A stretch of 64,000 bases of DNA from Fictibacillus arsenicus (GTDB taxonomy: Bacteria > Bacillota > Bacilli > Bacillales > Fictibacillaceae): positions 2,728,001-2,792,000 of the forward strand of contig NZ_CP016761.1 of assembly GCF_001642935.1 (NCBI RefSeq), read 5' to 3'. Below are positions 11,098 to 40,062 of this stretch, piece by piece; within the stretch, counting starts at the first letter, position 1; every line of letters starts with the position of its first letter. A program made the translations under genes and the position numbers. The notes beneath the pieces were generated by a model, which was not told the origin of the DNA, did no database searches, and saw only the letters and a list, made by a program, of their open reading frames with translations.

Positions 11098-12042
11098 ATG
11101 GCTCATGTTGTAAAAAAAATGACGAATACCGAAATCTTAGCAATGAAAAAAGATCTAGCTCATGCCGTTCAGGATAAAACTCCGCCTGGTGCTGTCTTTA
11201 CCGCCAAACTCCCGGATTGTACAGTGACAGCTTACAATTCCGGAAAGGTACTGTTTCAAGGAAAAGGAGCAGAAGAAGCTTCTCAAAAATTTTCAGGTCT
11301 AGTCTCACCATCTAAAGTAAAAAGCAAAACATCTAAACCCCCTCATCGTTATGCACCGCCCCAAAATGCTGCAGAATTATCGATGATCGGAAGCGATGAG
11401 GTTGGTACAGGCGATTATTTCGGACCAATGACAGTTGCCGCAGCTTATGTATCACGCGATCAGCTTGAATTGGTAAGGGAACTAGGCGTTAAAGATTCCA
11501 AGCATTTAAACGATAAGCAGATTGTTCAGATTGCGAAAGAACTTATTCACACAGTTCCCTATTCTCTTCTTGTACTTAATAACGAGAAATACAATGAGCT
11601 TCAGCAAAAAGGAATGACTCAAGGAAAAATAAAGGCGATCCTGCATAACCGCGCTCTTCAAAATGTGAAGGCTAAGATAGAAGGATCAGAGATCGAAGGG
11701 ATATTAGTAGATCAGTTTTGCGAACCCGGTGTGTATTTTAACTACTTAACGAAAGAGAAAAACCTTCTAAAAGAAGGCATCTATTTTGCTACAAAAGGTG
11801 AATCTATTCATCTTGCAGTGGCTGCAGCATCTATTTTAGCAAGATACAGCTTTTTAAAGGAAATGGATAAACTCGGAGCACGATTTAACACTGTTATCCC
11901 AAAAGGTGCCGGACCTCATGTTGATGTGAAAGCGGCTGAACTAGCAGAAAAGTTTGGGGAATCCGTTTTTGATACAGCAACAAAAAAACATTTTGCAAAC
12001 ACTCAAAAGGCGTTGAATCTGTTGAAAAAAAAGCGATTATGA
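11098..12042 (+). CDS. rnhC: Ribonuclease HIII
   Basis: A 314-aa RNase HIII that cleaves RNA in RNA-DNA hybrids and is important for removing R-loops. The N-terminal TBP-like substrate-binding domain spans about residues 1-90. The catalytic core begins at about 95 with the signature IGSDEVGTGDYFGP; further acidic residues are in LGVKDSKHLND and LVDQF. The ATG has AGGGGG at about 7 nt. It is one of the few plus-strand genes, divergent from zapA and convergent with pheT. Confidence 0.96.
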   Translation: MAHVVKKMTNTEILAMKKDLAHAVQDKTPPGAVFTAKLPDCTVTAYNSGKVLFQGKGAEEASQKFSGLVSPSKVKSKTSKPPHRYAPPQNAAELSMIGSDEVGTGDYFGPMTVAAAYVSRDQLELVRELGVKDSKHLNDKQIVQIAKELIHTVPYSLLVLNNEKYNELQQKGMTQGKIKAILHNRALQNVKAKIEGSEIEGILVDQFCEPGVYFNYLTKEKNLLKEGIYFATKGESIHLAVAAASILARYSFLKEMDKLGARFNTVIPKGAGPHVDVKAAELAEKFGESVFDTATKKHFANTQKALNLLKKKRL

Positions 12043-12100: not shown

Positions 12101-12265
12101 GATGCTTGAAAATATGCGTCTGGGGCGGTCGTGTAGGGATAATGGGTGAAACTCGACGGCGTTCGGTTGAAACTAGGCCGCATTGGGGTGAAACGTGTAC
12201 TTGTTCGGGTGTAAGTCCAAAATACTGGGCGAACGTGTAATAAATAAAAGAACACGTACCGTAAA
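12101..12265 (-). repeat. 21-bp-period array, GGGTGAAAC type, copy 1
   Basis: On the plus strand the motif GGGTGAAAC or a variant recurs at 12144, 12165, 12186, 12207 and 12227, i.e. steps of 21, 21, 21 and 20 bp. Decayed units extend to the left. The right end GAACGTGTAATAAATAAAAG followed by AACACGTACCGTA is identical in inverted orientation to the end of the second array near 23.25 kb. It lies between rnhC and a bidirectional terminator. A 72-codon open frame crosses it but has no ribosome binding site and is not in the same phase as in copy 2, so I treat this as non-coding. Confidence 0.85.
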
Positions 12266-12343: not shown

Positions 12344-12541
12344 TCTAAAAGATTGTTGCTATTGGTCATTTTTTCATTATCTTCACTGATAAGTTGATTG
12401 GAGTGCAAGGTGCGAGACTCCGGCGGGATCAGGGTGACAGGTGAGACTCCTAATGGTGCATTCCGCCAAGGAGGCTCACCGCACGCCCCGCCGAAAGCGA
12501 GCATCCTGTAACGGAAATCAACTACTTTCAAAAACAACAAA
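12344..12541 (+). repeat. Intergenic palindromic element, copy C (core-only type)
   Basis: It starts AAGTTGATTGGAGTGCAAGG and ends CGGAAATCAACTAC, with the internal pair GGTGAGACTCC/GGAGGCTCACC. The outer inverted repeat AGATTGTTGCT...AACAACAAAG is present. It lies in the 3' untranslated region of pheT, between the stop codon and the terminator. Confidence 0.9.
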
Positions 12542-16056: not shown

Positions 16057-16290
16057 AAAAACTCCTCATCCAATAAGGGACGAGGAGTTCGCGGTACCAC
16101 CCAATTTAACAATGAAAATACACTGTTCACTTCATTTAAATAACGGCTCTTCACCGGCCAGCCCTACTCATAATGTTCAGGTGGCAACTCAGGAGTGAAT
16201 TCAATAATACCTACCAAAGAAATGCTTTCAGTCCAGGACATTTCCTCCCTTTTTGGCGGATTGATTATTTACTCTTCTCCATCTGCGTTT
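16057..16290 (-). promoter_or_regulatory. T-box riboswitch (tRNA-Phe) in pheST leader
   Basis: The T-box sequence GGGTGGTACCGCG is visible on the minus strand. It is followed by a terminator formed by AACTCCTCGTCC and GGATGAGGAGTT with a T-run just before pheS. The base of Stem I pairs GGAG (near 16280) with CTCC (near 16192). The specifier loop reads GAA-TTC-A, putting a TTC (Phe) codon at 16199-16197 on the minus strand. AGAGTA lies on the opposite side of the loop, as usual. Specifier and regulated gene agree. Confidence 0.92.
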
Positions 16291-16376
16291 TTTCAATCTA
16301 TTCATTATTCATCTTTTTCATTATATATGAAAAAAATCAAGAATTGCAACGAATCTCATATAAAAACAAGAAAACA

Positions 16377-18022: not shown

Positions 18023-18054
18023 CCCCTGCCTTTCATTCCTAAGCTATTATAACG

Positions 18055-18220
18055 TTATCTTGTCATACATTCGAGGATGAATTTTCGAAACAGCTGATAG
18101 CCGATATTGTTTGTCGAAAAATGCAAACTCGCGGCTTTATTACTTAAACTCGCGGGATTCTTATCGATTCTCGCGGAAATTAACATGAAAATTTCAGGGA
18201 TTACTTATAAAATTTTTTAG
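18055..18220 (-). repeat. 21-bp-period array, CTCGCGG type (decaying)
   Basis: CTCGCGG occurs at 18128, 18149 and 18170, exactly 21 bp apart. Degraded units continue in phase (TTCAGGG near 18192, TTTTAGG near 18212). On the minus strand a 43-codon open frame crosses the array (MLISARIDKNPASLSNK, then AASLHFSTNNIGYQLF) with a 7-residue period, but no ribosome binding site precedes its ATG. I call this a non-coding array; a small protein cannot be excluded. Confidence 0.75.
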
Positions 18221-18260
18221 GATTATCATTTATCTACTACATATGTGAACCTTTTCATCA

Positions 18261-18292
18261 TAAAAAGCGCATGCCTCATGCAGGCATGCGCT
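18261..18292 (-). terminator. Terminator overlapping the VTT-protein stop codon
   Basis: The 10-bp stem AGCGCATGCC/GGCATGCGCT has the TGA stop codon of the upstream gene in its loop (loop TCATGCA), then TTTTTA on the minus strand. The 5' stem arm is coding sequence. Confidence 0.85.
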
Positions 18293-22929: not shown

Positions 22930-23092
22930 TGTTATTTCTGCAAATAAAAAAAGCGTCGGCGCATATATCACCCACACGTAAACCGGCTATGTACTAATAA
23001 CATGCCTGAATTCCATCTACCCATCAACAGCCAATTATAGGCGTCGAATCAGGTGAGAAGCGGGTGCTTCTGCTTGTTTGATGCTTAAGCTT
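22930..23092 (-). ncRNA. L20 leader (ribosomal protein autoregulatory element)
   Basis: The minus-strand leader upstream of infC contains the L20-leader stretches AAGCAGAAGCACCCGCTTCT, ACCTGATTCGACGCCTATA, TTGATGGGTAGATGGAATTC, CAGGCATGTTATTAGTACAT and AGCCGGTTTACGTGTGGG, then a GC-rich stem with a T-run (GCGCCGACGC then TTTTTTT). This resembles the known Bacillus element that attenuates infC-rpmI-rplT when L20 is in excess. Boundaries are approximate. Confidence 0.88.
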
Positions 23093-23110
23093 ATTTTATT
23101 AACCTTACAT

Positions 23111-23140
23111 ACTATAACATATTGGTGTGAAATGTGTCAA
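23111..23140 (-). promoter_or_regulatory. Sigma-A promoter of infC operon
   Basis: On the minus strand TTGACA and TATAGT are separated by 18 bp, just upstream of the L20 leader. Confidence 0.75.
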
Positions 23141-23237
23141 ACAGCAAATGTAATAAGCAACGAAATTAATTTTACTTCGTTTTGAAATGTAATGCAAGAG
23201 TTTTTTTAGAGAGTGAAGAAAAAAAGCATTTTTGTTA

Positions 23238-23408
23238 ATGGATGTACGGTACGTGTTCTTTTATTTATTACACGTTCACCCCGTACAAGAACAGTTTAAC
23301 CCATTCGAACTCACGTTTCACCCCAACGCGGCCGAGTTTCACCCAAAGATCACTCTGTTTCACCCGGCGGCTCCTCATTTTCGCCCGGTGATCTATATAC
23401 CAATATGA
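23238..23408 (+). repeat. 21-bp-period array, GTTTCACCC type, copy 2
   Basis: GTTTCACCC-type motifs on the plus strand fall at 23294, 23315, 23336, 23357 and 23378, exactly 21 bp apart, with a first unit ending in phase at 23281. The left end, around GGTACGTGTTCTTTTATTTA then TTACACGTTC, is the inverted equivalent of the end of the 12.1 kb array. A 56-codon frame crosses it (MDVRYVFFYLLHVHP start; FHPNAAE, FHPKITL, FHPAAPH heptads) but lacks a ribosome binding site, and its phase differs from copy 1. It lies between the infC promoter and thrS. Confidence 0.87.
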
Positions 23409-23454
23409 ATTCCACTAAAAAATACTCCTTTTTGTAACACTTAAACAAAAATAG

Positions 23455-23503
23455 AAAAGCCGACGCCAAAAAAATGGTATCTTTTGGGTCAGCTTCTTTT
23501 TAA
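23455..23503 (-). terminator. Terminator after thrS
   Basis: The minus strand forms GAAGCTGACCCAAAAG with TTTTTTTGGCGTCGGCTT, an imperfect long stem followed by TTTT. It lies directly after the thrS stop. Confidence 0.75.
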
Positions 23504-23505
23504 AA

Positions 23506-25416
23506 TTATCTTTTTTCGTTAATTTGAGCTAGAATCTTGTCTCTAAAATCTTCATAAGAAACTGTTTCTGATTTTTGCTCGCCATATTTACGAACGTTTA
23601 CAGCATTGTCTTCAATTTCTTTATCGCCTAGAACGAGCATGTAAGGGATCTTCTTCATTTGAGCTTCACGGATCTTATAACCCATCTTCTCATTTCTTGT
23701 GTCGATTTCAACACGTACCGCATGTTCTTTCAAGTCTTCTTGCAGTTTATACGCGTATTCGTTATGAACATCAGATACAGGGATCAGCTTCACTTGTACG
23801 GGTGCCAGCCAAGTTGGGAATGCACCTGCAAAATGCTCGACTAAAATTCCTAAGAAACGGTCGATCGAACCATAGATCGCACGGTGAATAACGACCGGAC
23901 GAACCTTTTGGTTATTTTCATCTACGTAAGTAAGGTCGAACTTTTCAGGCATCTGGAAATCCAGCTGAATTGTTGCGCACTGATGACTTCTCTTAAGTGC
24001 ATCTTTAATGTGGAAGTCGATTTTCGGACCATAGAATGCGCCGTCACCTTCGTTAAGGTGATAGTTCATACCCAGATCTTCTAATACATTCTTCAATGCA
24101 CCTTCAGCTTGTTCCCATAAACGGTCATCACCCATAGAATCTTCAGGACGAGTTGAAAGTTCTACTGAGTACTCAAAACCGAATGTGCTGTAAATTTTAT
24201 CAACTAACTTAAATACGTTTTTAATTTCACTTTCAATCTGTTGTGGTGTTACAAAAATATGTGCGTCATCCTGGCAGAAAGTACGTACACGGATCATACC
24301 ATTTAATGCACCGCTGTATTCGTGGCGGTGTACCTGGCCAAATTCAGCCATACGTACTGGCAGGTCTCTGTAAGAGTGAAGCTTATTTTTAAAGATAAGC
24401 ATATGGCCTGGGCAGTTCATCGGCTTCATCGCGAACTTTGTATCATCTACTTCAGAGAAATACATGTTTTCGTGATAGTGATCCCAGTGCCCGGATTGCT
24501 CCCATAGGCGCTGATTCATCATAAATGGTGTACGCACTTCATCATAATCAACTTGACGCTGAAGTTCACGCGAGAAATTTTCAAGCTCTGTACGAATTGT
24601 TTGACCGTTCGGAAGATAGAAAGGCATTCCAGGCGCTTCTTCTGAGAACATGAAGAGTTCTAATTCTTTTCCAAGTTTACGGTGATCACGTTTTTGTGCT
24701 TCTTCAATAAAGTGCAGATACTCATCAAGATCTTTTTGGCTTAAGAATGCAGATCCATAGATACGCTGAAGCATTTGGTTGTCACTGTCTCCGCGCCAGT
24801 AAGCTCCAGAGATGCTCATTAGTTTATAGGCTTTGATTTTACCAGTTGAAGGTACATGCGGTCCGCGGCAAAGGTCAAAGAACTCACCTTGTTCATAGAT
24901 CGTAATTTTTTCTCCTTCAGGAAGGTCACGGATCAATTCAAGTTTTAAATGATCATTTAATTTCTCATAAATTTCAAGAGCTTCTTCACGAGTTACTTCT
25001 TTACGGACGATCGGAAGATTCTCATTAACAATTTTTTTCATTTCTTTTTCAATCGCAGGAAGGTCTTCTGGTGTTAAATTATGAGACATGTCTACATCAT
25101 AATAAAAACCGTTATCGATCACCGGGCCGATTCCAAGCTTTACATCTGGATACAAACGCTTTAGCGCTTGAGCGAGCAAGTGAGCGTTAGAGTGTCTAGT
25201 CATCTCAAGACCTTCTTGTGAATCCTGCATTACGATCTCAATCGATGCATCTTCTTCAATCGGGCGTGAAAAGTCATACAATTGCCCGTTTACTTTTCCT
25301 GCTACAGCTTTTTTCTTTAAGCTAGGGCTGATACTTTCAGCAACTTGTTCTGAAGTTACTCCTTTTGGAAATTCCTTGAGCGATCCGTCTGGGAATGTAA
25401 TTGAAATTGACGACAT
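23506..25416 (-). CDS. thrS: Threonyl-tRNA synthetase
   Basis: A class II synthetase of 636 aa. It has an N-terminal TGS domain (ISITFPDGSLKEFPKGVTSE), an editing domain with zinc-type residues (TRHSNAHLLAQALKRLY), the catalytic core with the zinc ligands (MNCPGHMLIFK, HRHEYSGALNGMIRVR), and the anticodon-binding domain (about 530-636). AAAGGAGATG is 6 nt before the chosen ATG (MSSISITF); an ATG three codons earlier overlaps the ribosome binding site. It is controlled by a T-box leader. Confidence 0.97.
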   Translation of the reverse strand: MSSISITFPDGSLKEFPKGVTSEQVAESISPSLKKKAVAGKVNGQLYDFSRPIEEDASIEIVMQDSQEGLEMTRHSNAHLLAQALKRLYPDVKLGIGPVIDNGFYYDVDMSHNLTPEDLPAIEKEMKKIVNENLPIVRKEVTREEALEIYEKLNDHLKLELIRDLPEGEKITIYEQGEFFDLCRGPHVPSTGKIKAYKLMSISGAYWRGDSDNQMLQRIYGSAFLSQKDLDEYLHFIEEAQKRDHRKLGKELELFMFSEEAPGMPFYLPNGQTIRTELENFSRELQRQVDYDEVRTPFMMNQRLWEQSGHWDHYHENMYFSEVDDTKFAMKPMNCPGHMLIFKNKLHSYRDLPVRMAEFGQVHRHEYSGALNGMIRVRTFCQDDAHIFVTPQQIESEIKNVFKLVDKIYSTFGFEYSVELSTRPEDSMGDDRLWEQAEGALKNVLEDLGMNYHLNEGDGAFYGPKIDFHIKDALKRSHQCATIQLDFQMPEKFDLTYVDENNQKVRPVVIHRAIYGSIDRFLGILVEHFAGAFPTWLAPVQVKLIPVSDVHNEYAYKLQEDLKEHAVRVEIDTRNEKMGYKIREAQMKKIPYMLVLGDKEIEDNAVNVRKYGEQKSETVSYEDFRDKILAQINEKR

Positions 25417-25447: not shown

Positions 25448-25690
25448 AAAAACACCCGTCCCTATAGAAGGGACGAGTGATTATCTCGTGGTTCCACCCT
25501 TGTTCCGCAAAATAATAATAAATTACGGCACTCGGACAGGATAACGGACTGCTGCCGTCAGCGATTACTTAAAGTTTCACCGCTGAAGTTCCAAGGTGGT
25601 AAAGCAATTTTTCGTGTTAGGAAGCTTTCAGCCGTAACTTCCCTCTCTAAAAACCGTAAAAGCTGCTTCATGTCCTTATCAATACTGATT
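25448..25690 (-). promoter_or_regulatory. T-box riboswitch (tRNA-Thr) in thrS leader
   Basis: The T-box sequence AGGGTGGAACCACGAG is visible at about 25500-25485 on the minus strand. It is followed by the terminator stem CACTCGTCCCTTC/GGGACGGGTGTT and a T-run. The downstream gene implies tRNA-Thr; an ACC triplet in TTTACCACCTTGG is a candidate specifier, but I could not fix the Stem I fold by eye. Confidence 0.88.
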
Positions 25691-25755
25691 AAATGATAAA
25701 ATTATAAACTTATTATATGCAGTCATCTATCAAAAAGCAAGAGGCCAATGACAGT

Positions 25756-26625
25756 TTATGACTTTTTTTTATACGGATACGGGTTACCCTTTAAAGACAT
25801 CTTCTCAATTGGTGATATTATAACCTTCTCTTGAAAAATATTCTTTACCGTTTGCAGAAGCGGGTGATCCATATCATATGCATAAATCCGGGCAGATGAA
25901 GGAGCTAATCCGATTAAAGGTCCGAGGAGTCGTTCATCTAAGTTAACGGCATTCGTTAATTTCATTGCCCTATCATGCAAGTTCTTTAGTTCAGTTTTTG
26001 ATAGCTGATTTTGCTGTTCATCAAATATAACTACATTCTCATAATCAAATATAATTACAATATCATTTTTAAAAATAGATTTTTGTTTTGATAAGCACGT
26101 ACGTAATTGTTCAATAAATAATTGATACTCAAGCTCTAATTTATATTCATCAATAGCACATTCAACAATCCTAAGCAAAGTTGCTAAATAATCTTTAAGA
26201 CGAAACTTTAAAAACGCTTCAAACTCTAAGAAGTTTCTTTTTTCAGCTAAGATAGACTTCCACTGACCTCGTATGAGTCCACTCAGACATGGCAAGCTTT
26301 TGACCTCTGGGATCCCTTCGATTTCCCCTAAGATAATGCTCTTAGATATTGAAAATATTTCCTTCTGTTCAGCAGAGTCGCTATAAAAAAAGGCATGTTC
26401 AATCATTTCCTTTAAACAAATATCTTCTACCTTATTCCTTGTAAATTCCGTTAACACATCCAAAATGAATTCTTTATTATCATGTATGTGCAGTTCAAGA
26501 ATTTTTGAAGAAGCATCAGATAATTTGGCAAAGGAAGGGTTAATTTTAAATTTGACTGCCGTCCGGATCATTTTTTTTAGGACAGCGATTCCGTCAGACG
26601 GGTGTGAAAAAGCGATCGTGATCAA
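25756..26625 (-). CDS. ytxC: Sporulation-associated protein YtxC
   Basis: A 289-aa protein resembling the YtxC family, found in spore formers and placed upstream of thrS in B. subtilis as here. The biochemical function is unknown. The TTG start is preferred since GGGGGGGA lies about 5 nt upstream and the product begins ITIAFSHPSDG; an in-frame ATG further upstream has no such site. No signal peptide or clear membrane helix is seen. The C-terminus (SLKGNPYPYKKKS) is basic. Confidence 0.82.
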   Translation of the reverse strand: MITIAFSHPSDGIAVLKKMIRTAVKFKINPSFAKLSDASSKILELHIHDNKEFILDVLTEFTRNKVEDICLKEMIEHAFFYSDSAEQKEIFSISKSIILGEIEGIPEVKSLPCLSGLIRGQWKSILAEKRNFLEFEAFLKFRLKDYLATLLRIVECAIDEYKLELEYQLFIEQLRTCLSKQKSIFKNDIVIIFDYENVVIFDEQQNQLSKTELKNLHDRAMKLTNAVNLDERLLGPLIGLAPSSARIYAYDMDHPLLQTVKNIFQEKVIISPIEKMSLKGNPYPYKKKS

Positions 26626-26702
26626 GCAAGTCCCCCCCATATAAAATCTCAATAATACAATATATGGGACCAGGTCTTAAAAAATGTTACCTAAACAAGT
26701 AA

Positions 26703-39216: not shown

Positions 39217-40038
39217 TTATTTTTGACAGTTCTTACATATGTGAGTGCCTCTTCCTGCTACAACCATGCGTTCGATCTCATTCCCACAGATACGGCAAGG
39301 CTCACTCTTTCTTCCATACACAAACAATTTCAGCTGAAAGCCTCCAGTTTCACCCATCGAATTCGTATACGAACGGATCGTACTTCCACCATGTTTTACC
39401 GCTTCAGCTAAAATATCCGTAATAGCATTCTTTAATTTTTTTAGCTTGTGTATAGATAATTCATTAGCAGGTGTTTCAGGATGAATTTTCGCTTTAAATA
39501 ATACTTCATCGACATAGATGTTTCCGATGCCTGCAATGAATGTCTGATCCAGGAGCACTGCTTTAATGCTGCGTTTTGTCTTGAAAAATAATTTTTTCAT
39601 GAGTCCCGCGGTAAGGGAATCAGATAGCGGCTCAACACCTAATGAGCTTAGCGGAAGGTGATTTTCTTCAGTTCCTTTAGGATATAGGTGCATTGTACCG
39701 AATTTACGGACGTCTCTATACCTGAGTTCCGTTCCGTCTGTAAAAGAAAAGATAACATGAGTATGCTTGTCAGGTGGTTCTTCCTTATTGAACAGTCCAT
39801 ATTTACCTTCCATCCTCAGATGAGAAACAAGAGAATCTTCATTTAGATGAAAAATTAAAAACTTCCCTCTCCTGTACACTTCTTCAAAACTCTGACCTTT
39901 AAGCCTTAAAATAAACTCTTCTGGTACAGGATGCTTGATGATATTATCCCAATAAATTTTTATATCTTTAATAACTTTCCCTGGTAAAAATCGATTAAGA
40001 GTATTTTTCACATTTTCTACTTCAGGTAATTCAGGCAC
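39217..40038 (-). CDS. mutM: Formamidopyrimidine-DNA glycosylase
   Basis: A base-excision repair glycosylase/AP lyase (Fpg) of 273 aa removing 8-oxoguanine. The catalytic N-terminal proline requires the protein to begin MPELPEVENV; this fixes the GTG start and excludes the four-codon longer frame. The lysine segment YRRGKFL and the C-terminal zinc finger (CRICGNEIERMVV, ICKNC) are present. It lies downstream of polA and before ytaF. Confidence 0.96.
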   Translation of the reverse strand: MPELPEVENVKNTLNRFLPGKVIKDIKIYWDNIIKHPVPEEFILRLKGQSFEEVYRRGKFLIFHLNEDSLVSHLRMEGKYGLFNKEEPPDKHTHVIFSFTDGTELRYRDVRKFGTMHLYPKGTEENHLPLSSLGVEPLSDSLTAGLMKKLFFKTKRSIKAVLLDQTFIAGIGNIYVDEVLFKAKIHPETPANELSIHKLKKLKNAITDILAEAVKHGGSTIRSYTNSMGETGGFQLKLFVYGRKSEPCRICGNEIERMVVAGRGTHICKNCQK

Positions 40039-40062
40039 GAGTTTCACCACACTTTACTATGA

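Follow-up and report, generated by a model that had tools for sequence, protein, structure and literature searches.

What are the evenly stepped short motifs between thrS and infC, and what could have kept their step? In the window, which is the whole 64-kb stretch of DNA that was analysed, six in-phase motifs span 23273-23386 between infC and thrS, and every start-to-start step is 21 bp (Table 1). The initial annotation described an exact 21-bp array with a further motif in phase at its left end. That unit is present (23273, CGTTCACCC) and the step is exact at this site, but the 9-mer GTTTCACCC itself is exact in only three of the six units, the remaining ones differing by one or two bases. 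The 12-bp spacers are mutually unrelated, as had been pointed out, and a repeat-family search at the array reported none. A simple tandem duplication is accordingly set aside, as is a simple tandem repeat or VNTR, since whole units are not alike. A motif-blind scan over five units gives the array a lag-21 score of 78/90, compared with maxima of 45-51 in 10 Markov shuffles of the window, and scanning the window at lags of 18, 19, 20, 22, 23, 24 and 30 gives scores of at most 52. Exact GTTTCACCC occurs six times in the window versus 0.36 expected. Two of these copies belong to a second array (12144-12263), located on the minus strand behind the plus-strand ORF 11098-12042 and with a predicted terminator after its core; another, at 39347, lies inside the long ORF 39217-40050 and is taken as a chance match. 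A candidate array of another type (18125-18230), behind another gene, scores 53/90, barely over the shuffle maximum of 51.

Table 1. Features of the window (positions in the 64-kb stretch)
Feature	Position	Strand	Sequence or remark
Array unit 1	23273..23281	+	CGTTCACCC
Array unit 2	23294..23302	+	GTTTAACCC
Array unit 3	23315..23323	+	GTTTCACCC
Array unit 4	23336..23344	+	GTTTCACCC
Array unit 5	23357..23365	+	GTTTCACCC
Array unit 6	23378..23386	+	TTTTCGCCC
Conserved core, 33 bp	23245..23277	+	TACGGTACGTGTTCTTTTATTTATTACACGTTC; imperfect dyad ACGTGT...ACACGT
Predicted intrinsic terminator of thrS	23447..23497 (ends approximate)	-	hairpin and T-run, -19.7 kcal/mol
Promoter-like site upstream of infC	23111..23140	-	TTGACA-18-TATAGT; 11/12 consensus match only
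Second element copy	12144..12263	-	core 12231-12263, five units from 12144
Candidate degenerate 21-bp array, other type	18125..18230		AAACTCGCGG-like; gap 18023-18275
Open frame, 58 codons	23232..23408	+	TTG start, FHP heptads; not a gene

The array belongs to a larger element made of a conserved 33-bp core (23245-23277), the right end of which overlaps unit 1, and usually six phased motifs of swappable type. In the own genome (4,055,461 bp, one contig), the core is found in 56 copies at up to three mismatches, while the reversed pattern, used as control, has no match. The main array types behind it are A (TTTCACCC) and B (TTTCGCTCA); type C (TTTCACGC) is rarer. Script classification of 32 own-genome copies gives 13 A, including one C-type copy (984119), 15 B with six units each, and four unclassified copies that were dropped before steps were counted. 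Steps in the A class are of 21 bp in 46 cases, of 20 bp in three and of 22 bp in one, and those in B copies are of 21 bp in 26 cases and of 20 bp in 49. A fixed step thus recurs in other copies, as the proposal of a phased array had implied; ‘exact 21’ holds for the window array, whereas the range across families is 20-22 bp. Six is the usual number of units, both in own-genome copies by a looser count (38/56, with 14 having fewer and four more) and in core copies of other genomes (45/70, with 14 having fewer and 11 more, several of the 11 resting on a skipped unit and being perhaps due to chance). A strict limit at six is ruled out by two copies, L057 and L093, with eight consecutive units each, those of L093 being B units followed by two A-like ones. 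A genome search for the core pattern elsewhere returned 68 stretches, every one from Fictibacillus; in 60 of them a phased array follows (score of at least 40), mostly B, with A and C also represented. The B motif is found in one of 299 sampled Bacilli genomes, namely the own genome, the only Fictibacillus of that sample. Two own-genome loci have an unusual composition: L354, at about 1.32 Mb, is a tandem pair of core elements (core-B6-core-C), and L363 (900876) has a core followed by a motif other than A, B or C (TCCACAA/TTTGGAC-like).

Phased arrays are not restricted to this core. A wider scan, for a 9-mer repeated in four units, the minimum detectable, covered 400 kb each of the own genome and of two other Fictibacillus genomes (G010 and G017). 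At exact steps between 12 and 44 bp, hits in non-ORF DNA number 25 for steps of 20 and 21 bp, with single hits for 39 and for 40 bp; the same array scan on Markov shuffles yields none. With one base of jitter, the three samples contribute 18, 10 and 12 arrays to the 20-22 bp class, and eight further step classes have zero or one. Outside the genus, four arrays of the 20-22 bp class occur in 33 stretches (640 kb) from other genomes of the order and class; 150 kb of Escherichia coli K-12 (16.8 kb non-ORF) contain no array. The motifs are diverse (TAATCTCACGAGA, ATCACATAATTT, CGTTGGATTA, ATTGAGTCT and others). Among 42 arrays from the three Fictibacillus sets and the window, 12 have four units, 18 five and 11 six, and one is a plain 20-bp VNTR of 17 units (L194 15962 in G010, TGAGCGATTCGAGAGGTTTA type, similar in sequence to the B sense motif). 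A further family, D (TACTGTCCACTT), is present in 10 of the 18 Fictibacillus genomes, with none in the own genome at the pattern and mismatches used; its commonest unit number is six (21/40 loci). At several loci (L236-L238, L242-L247, L264, L266, L270 and L271), compound units pair a phased ATTGGACAGATTA-like array with a D array in inverted orientation some 110 bp away, and their middle parts look alike by eye. Among the open-access papers listed, none was found to describe such arrays, and among the motif-string matches listed, TTGAGCGAAA appears in unrelated papers. Beyond what was initially annotated, the element is characterized by its 33-bp core, a norm of six units, many motif types and a preferred orientation at gene 3′ ends.

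Substitution rates between orthologues bear on function. In 18 syntenic pairs of the core family, 2.0% of sites differ in the core (10 changes in 503 compared sites), 3.5% in the motif, 13.8% in the spacers and 18.7% in the flanks; these rates favour conserved arrays, as 28 of 46 syntenic pairs with non-aligning arrays were excluded (several with a different motif type behind the same core, one being the tandem pair within the own genome). A looser count over 39 pairs gives 2.6, 9.1, 19.6 and 20.4%, in the same order. In family D, 50 orthologue pairs, which are not independent (38 of the 40 loci fall into 11 orthologue groups), show 3.7% change within the 12-bp motif, against 17.8% for the remaining nine bases and 16.0% for the flanks. 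The two bases preceding the motif, which to the eye are AA or TT in almost every case, change by about 3%. Steps at the 40 D loci are of 21 bp in 164/166 cases and of 42 bp in two, 20 and 22 bp having been permitted. Gap openings in D arrays number 28, of which 10 are of 21 bp, three of 20 or 23 bp and 15 of 1-2 bp; the last cancel out, as steps remain at 21. Compared with its sole orthologue at hand (G002, whose thrS-infC array has no 33-bp core), the window array has 1/51 changes in motifs, 6/60 in spacers and 20/339 in flanks. That motif and step are kept while spacers drift argues, at the sequence level, for a function of motif and spacing at each site rather than decay, and the initial suggestion of a decayed element is not supported, motif and core being conserved between orthologues.

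Conservation at individual sites goes together with exchange of the motif. A comparison by eye of the thrS-infC site in 18 Fictibacillus genomes, with most arrays also found by script, shows A units in the own genome and G002, ACTGTCCACTT in eight genomes (G003, G004, G005, G008, G009, G010, G012 and G015), AATCTGTCCAATT in G011 and G016, and ATTGAGTCT in G017. No array is seen in G001, G013 and G014, and none or a trace in G006 and G007; given its absence there, the array is dispensable at thrS in some sister species. Swaps of type behind a kept core include A/B (L002/L076 and L003/L072), A/C (L051/L063) and B/C (L079/L087). Recombination between two tandem cores, such as those of L354, would leave a single array and may be a route of motif switching. 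It is conceivable, although doubtful, that Fictibacillus and, less so, other Bacillales possess a class of addressable sites with fixed geometry (usually six sites at a step of 20-22 bp along one helix face) and interchangeable recognition words. On this view, words would vary among the arrays of a genome and be exchanged wholesale between species at syntenic places, the core being kept, as if a core-bound machine loaded changing readers onto gene 3′ ends.

In the window, the element is flanked on one side by the predicted thrS terminator, which sits between the thrS stop and the array (it comes from a custom script and is missed by a stricter pattern scan limited to loops of 3-8), and on the other by the L20 leader and the infC promoter-like site (23111-23140). 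The latter lies on the core side of the element, and shuffles of the region yield 1.5 such sites. The core was considered as a sigma-A promoter toward the array and rejected, as a scan of the plus strand of 23100-23560 found none. Known structured RNAs were rejected as well: at gathering score, Rfam matches in the window are the L20 leader and two T-box leaders on the minus strand (16073-16294 and 25466-25691), with none on the element. Other repeats in the window are a 24-bp repeat in two copies (26020-26066) within ORF 25756-26652 and, at 12399-12540, a repeat GAGACTCC...AAGGAGGCTCACCGCACGCCCCGCCGAAAGCGAGCATCCTG...GGAAATCAAC, also found next to several B arrays. The latter repeat is matched by no Rfam family at gathering score and is common in Bacillus genomes.

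Across genomes, 46 non-ORF arrays are distributed over co-directional (24), convergent (13) and divergent (3) gaps, with six unclassified; convergent and divergent gaps make up 13 and 22% of intergenic bases in the Fictibacillus samples. Orientation toward genes, which rests on crude ORF calls, is biased: the array-side gene points into the array in 29/32 core copies, in 36/48 with stricter ORF calls and more copies (eight of the 56 were missed by the script seed, which needs an unchanged right core arm), and in 34/37 D loci, corresponding to about 13 independent sites (three further D loci have no called gene on the array side). Between the inward-pointing gene and the array, a predicted terminator is present in 25/36 core copies; in the remaining 11, it is within the array (four), at or after the core (three) or not found (four), these counts covering array-bearing genes only. 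Element orientation also agrees with replication fork direction in 39/48 core copies, with the origin placed near base 1 because of genes there that we take to be guaB- and dacA-like. Both orientations fit in 32 copies, fork only in seven, gene only in four and neither in five. An orientation set by replication only was tried and is not cleanly separable from gene orientation, given the 32 copies that fit both. Gene orientation is symmetric in convergent pairs, and fork agreement among these is 15/18 (subset counted by hand), and eight of nine D arrays in G010 fit fork direction (hand count, same origin assumption).

Several readings other than protein binding have to be weighed. The initial annotation pointed to an open frame with FHP heptads; the frame exists and has 58 codons, and a small protein with heptad repeats (FHPxxxx) would be its product, the probability of which is close to nil. 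Spacer codons in the FHP frame of 13 arrays contain seven stops in 184 codons against 9.1 expected, and B arrays mix 20- and 21-bp steps, which breaks any reading frame; coding heptads are rejected on both grounds. With stops near expectation, the frame is best seen, from its sequence, as a by-product of the 21-bp step. Long ORFs also contain arrays (four, three and five per 400-kb sample), which do not enter the counts; these ORFs are perhaps spurious frames over arrays, or coiled-coil genes. It is very unlikely that the arrays are a neutral residue of tandem duplication, with the motif alone surviving by chance: units are indeed gained or lost between orthologues in steps of about 21 bp, but motif and spacer rates are about four- to five-fold apart in two motif families. 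No more credit is due to a sense RNA element in the 3′-UTR, serving stability or processing of the upstream mRNA. The location behind genes in a preferred orientation and the 11/36 copies with no predicted terminator before the array would suit it, whereas the array lies beyond a predicted terminator in the 25 others, and no Rfam family matches the element at gathering score. Improbable, to a lesser degree, is a signal in antisense RNA, whose C-rich and G-poor repeats would recruit Rho or another RNA-binding hexamer. The orientation suits antisense transcripts, C-richness on the antisense strand is shared by the A, B and D motifs, and six is the commonest unit number; yet a step of 20-22 bp would be superfluous for flexible RNA, most positions other than C in the D motif are as constrained as the C positions, and some families, ATTGAGTCT among them, lack this C-richness.

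A mobile or copied repeat (MITE-like or transposon-end-like), with motifs as recombinase or transposase sites and copies landing behind terminators, is the rival with most in its favour, although we consider it unlikely. One core is present in 56 copies, and single linkage at >80% identity over 161 bp groups 11 of 35 compared copies closely together. Also in favour are the tandem elements of L354, the syntenic sites at which the core is kept but the array differs, and the compound units of two inverted arrays with middles similar by eye at several loci. Selfish copies, however, would not be expected to preserve motif and core at single orthologous sites next to drifting spacers, nor to prefer one orientation toward genes, and the thrS-infC comparison by eye shows no target duplication or sharp insertion boundary; at this locus, no clean empty site was found. 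Spread as a mobile element and a function for the host may be compatible.

The explanation we prefer, tentatively and with slightly less than even confidence, is that of a cis-acting multi-site protein-binding array, cooperatively filled and acting as a polar roadblock. That the arrays are binding sites for protein is well supported by sequence patterns; the initial interpretation is partly sustained, in that its phased binding platform withstands both refuting conditions set for it, with a 20-21 bp step in other copies and a frame that is not coding. A single DNA face would offer a recognition motif of 9-14 bp at every second helical turn, usually six times, and in the window family the 33-bp core with its dyad would anchor the array. 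A DNA-binding protein would fill the sites cooperatively, and the filled array may then, by a weaker argument, form a roadblock halting RNA polymerases that arrive from the core side. Such polymerases would stem from read-through of a convergent neighbour or from antisense starts near the next promoter, and the roadblock would keep them from transcribing the gene in antisense and from meeting the replication fork head-on. With steps of 20-22 bp and none of 30-32, the arrays suggest proteins sitting next to one another along a single face of the double helix; neither an RNA nor a coding reading requires such a step. That six units are usual hints at a complex of preferred size, although eight occurs. 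As the core side faces the source of antisense, head-on transcription, it is tempting to see in the array a polar barrier that shields genes and forks; the arrays probably oppose transcription entering genes from behind, a point less secure than cooperative binding. Against this explanation, the many motif types per genome would call for many proteins or for one adaptable reader, 12/48 copies break the gene-orientation rule and 9/48 the fork rule, 11/36 lack a predicted terminator before the array, and some sister species do without the array at thrS.

If the roadblock explanation is right, the space behind genes would hold an overlooked, selected layer of chromosome organization, in soil bacteria that are harmless and readily grown. 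The geometry of the arrays predicts a cooperative protein filament, with orthologous arrays available as natural mutants; how recognition specificity turns over is a question raised by the change of motif type behind an unchanged core. For annotation, caution is advised, as the long open frames that arise from 21-bp arrays are not genes.

Known systems resemble these arrays in part. A CRISPR array was rejected, the motif being only 9-14 bp (not >20) and the spacers inherited and drifting between orthologues. In Beggiatoaceae, TAACTGA heptamers form direct repeats of 7-bp units that lie, for the most part, shortly before start codons, and related heptamers are rarely or never repeated (PMC4679880). 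The TAACTGA repeats differ from the present arrays in their 7-bp unit, single motif and start-codon side. REPs are palindromes, whereas the arrays here repeat in phase and in one direction, with spacers that are random and motifs of many types; in 23000-23700, no inverted repeats were found, and only the core has an imperfect dyad. The likeness to REP/BIME elements (see PMC3733652) lies in many dispersed intergenic copies at gene 3′ ends with proposed roles in supercoiling and termination. The location at 3′ ends is shared by the arrays (29/32, 36/48 and 34/37). A link to RAYT/REP was rejected: a RAYT-like PF01797 gene has a match in each of the 18 Fictibacillus genomes, and that of the own genome (L350 2808-3368) is single and divergent, with no core copy within 20 kb. 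In the 6 kb around it, there is one weak 21-bp hit (score 40, the threshold elsewhere being 43), and in the 1.6 kb around it no inverted repeats.

Plasmid iterons and centromere-like arrays are direct repeats about two turns apart with cooperative binding and replicon-specific motifs; the present arrays are unlike them in being dispersed over the chromosome behind genes. On Sal boxes behind mammalian rRNA genes, TTF-I is a terminator and a polar fork block; we know of no helical-step rule for these arrays, which are eukaryotic, have one motif and are confined to rDNA, unlike those described here. Sal-box arrays bound by TTF-I are nevertheless the closest functional model, as oriented sites behind a transcription unit (see PMC11358750). 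Judged by sequence, the Fictibacillus arrays are likewise oriented candidate sites behind transcription units.
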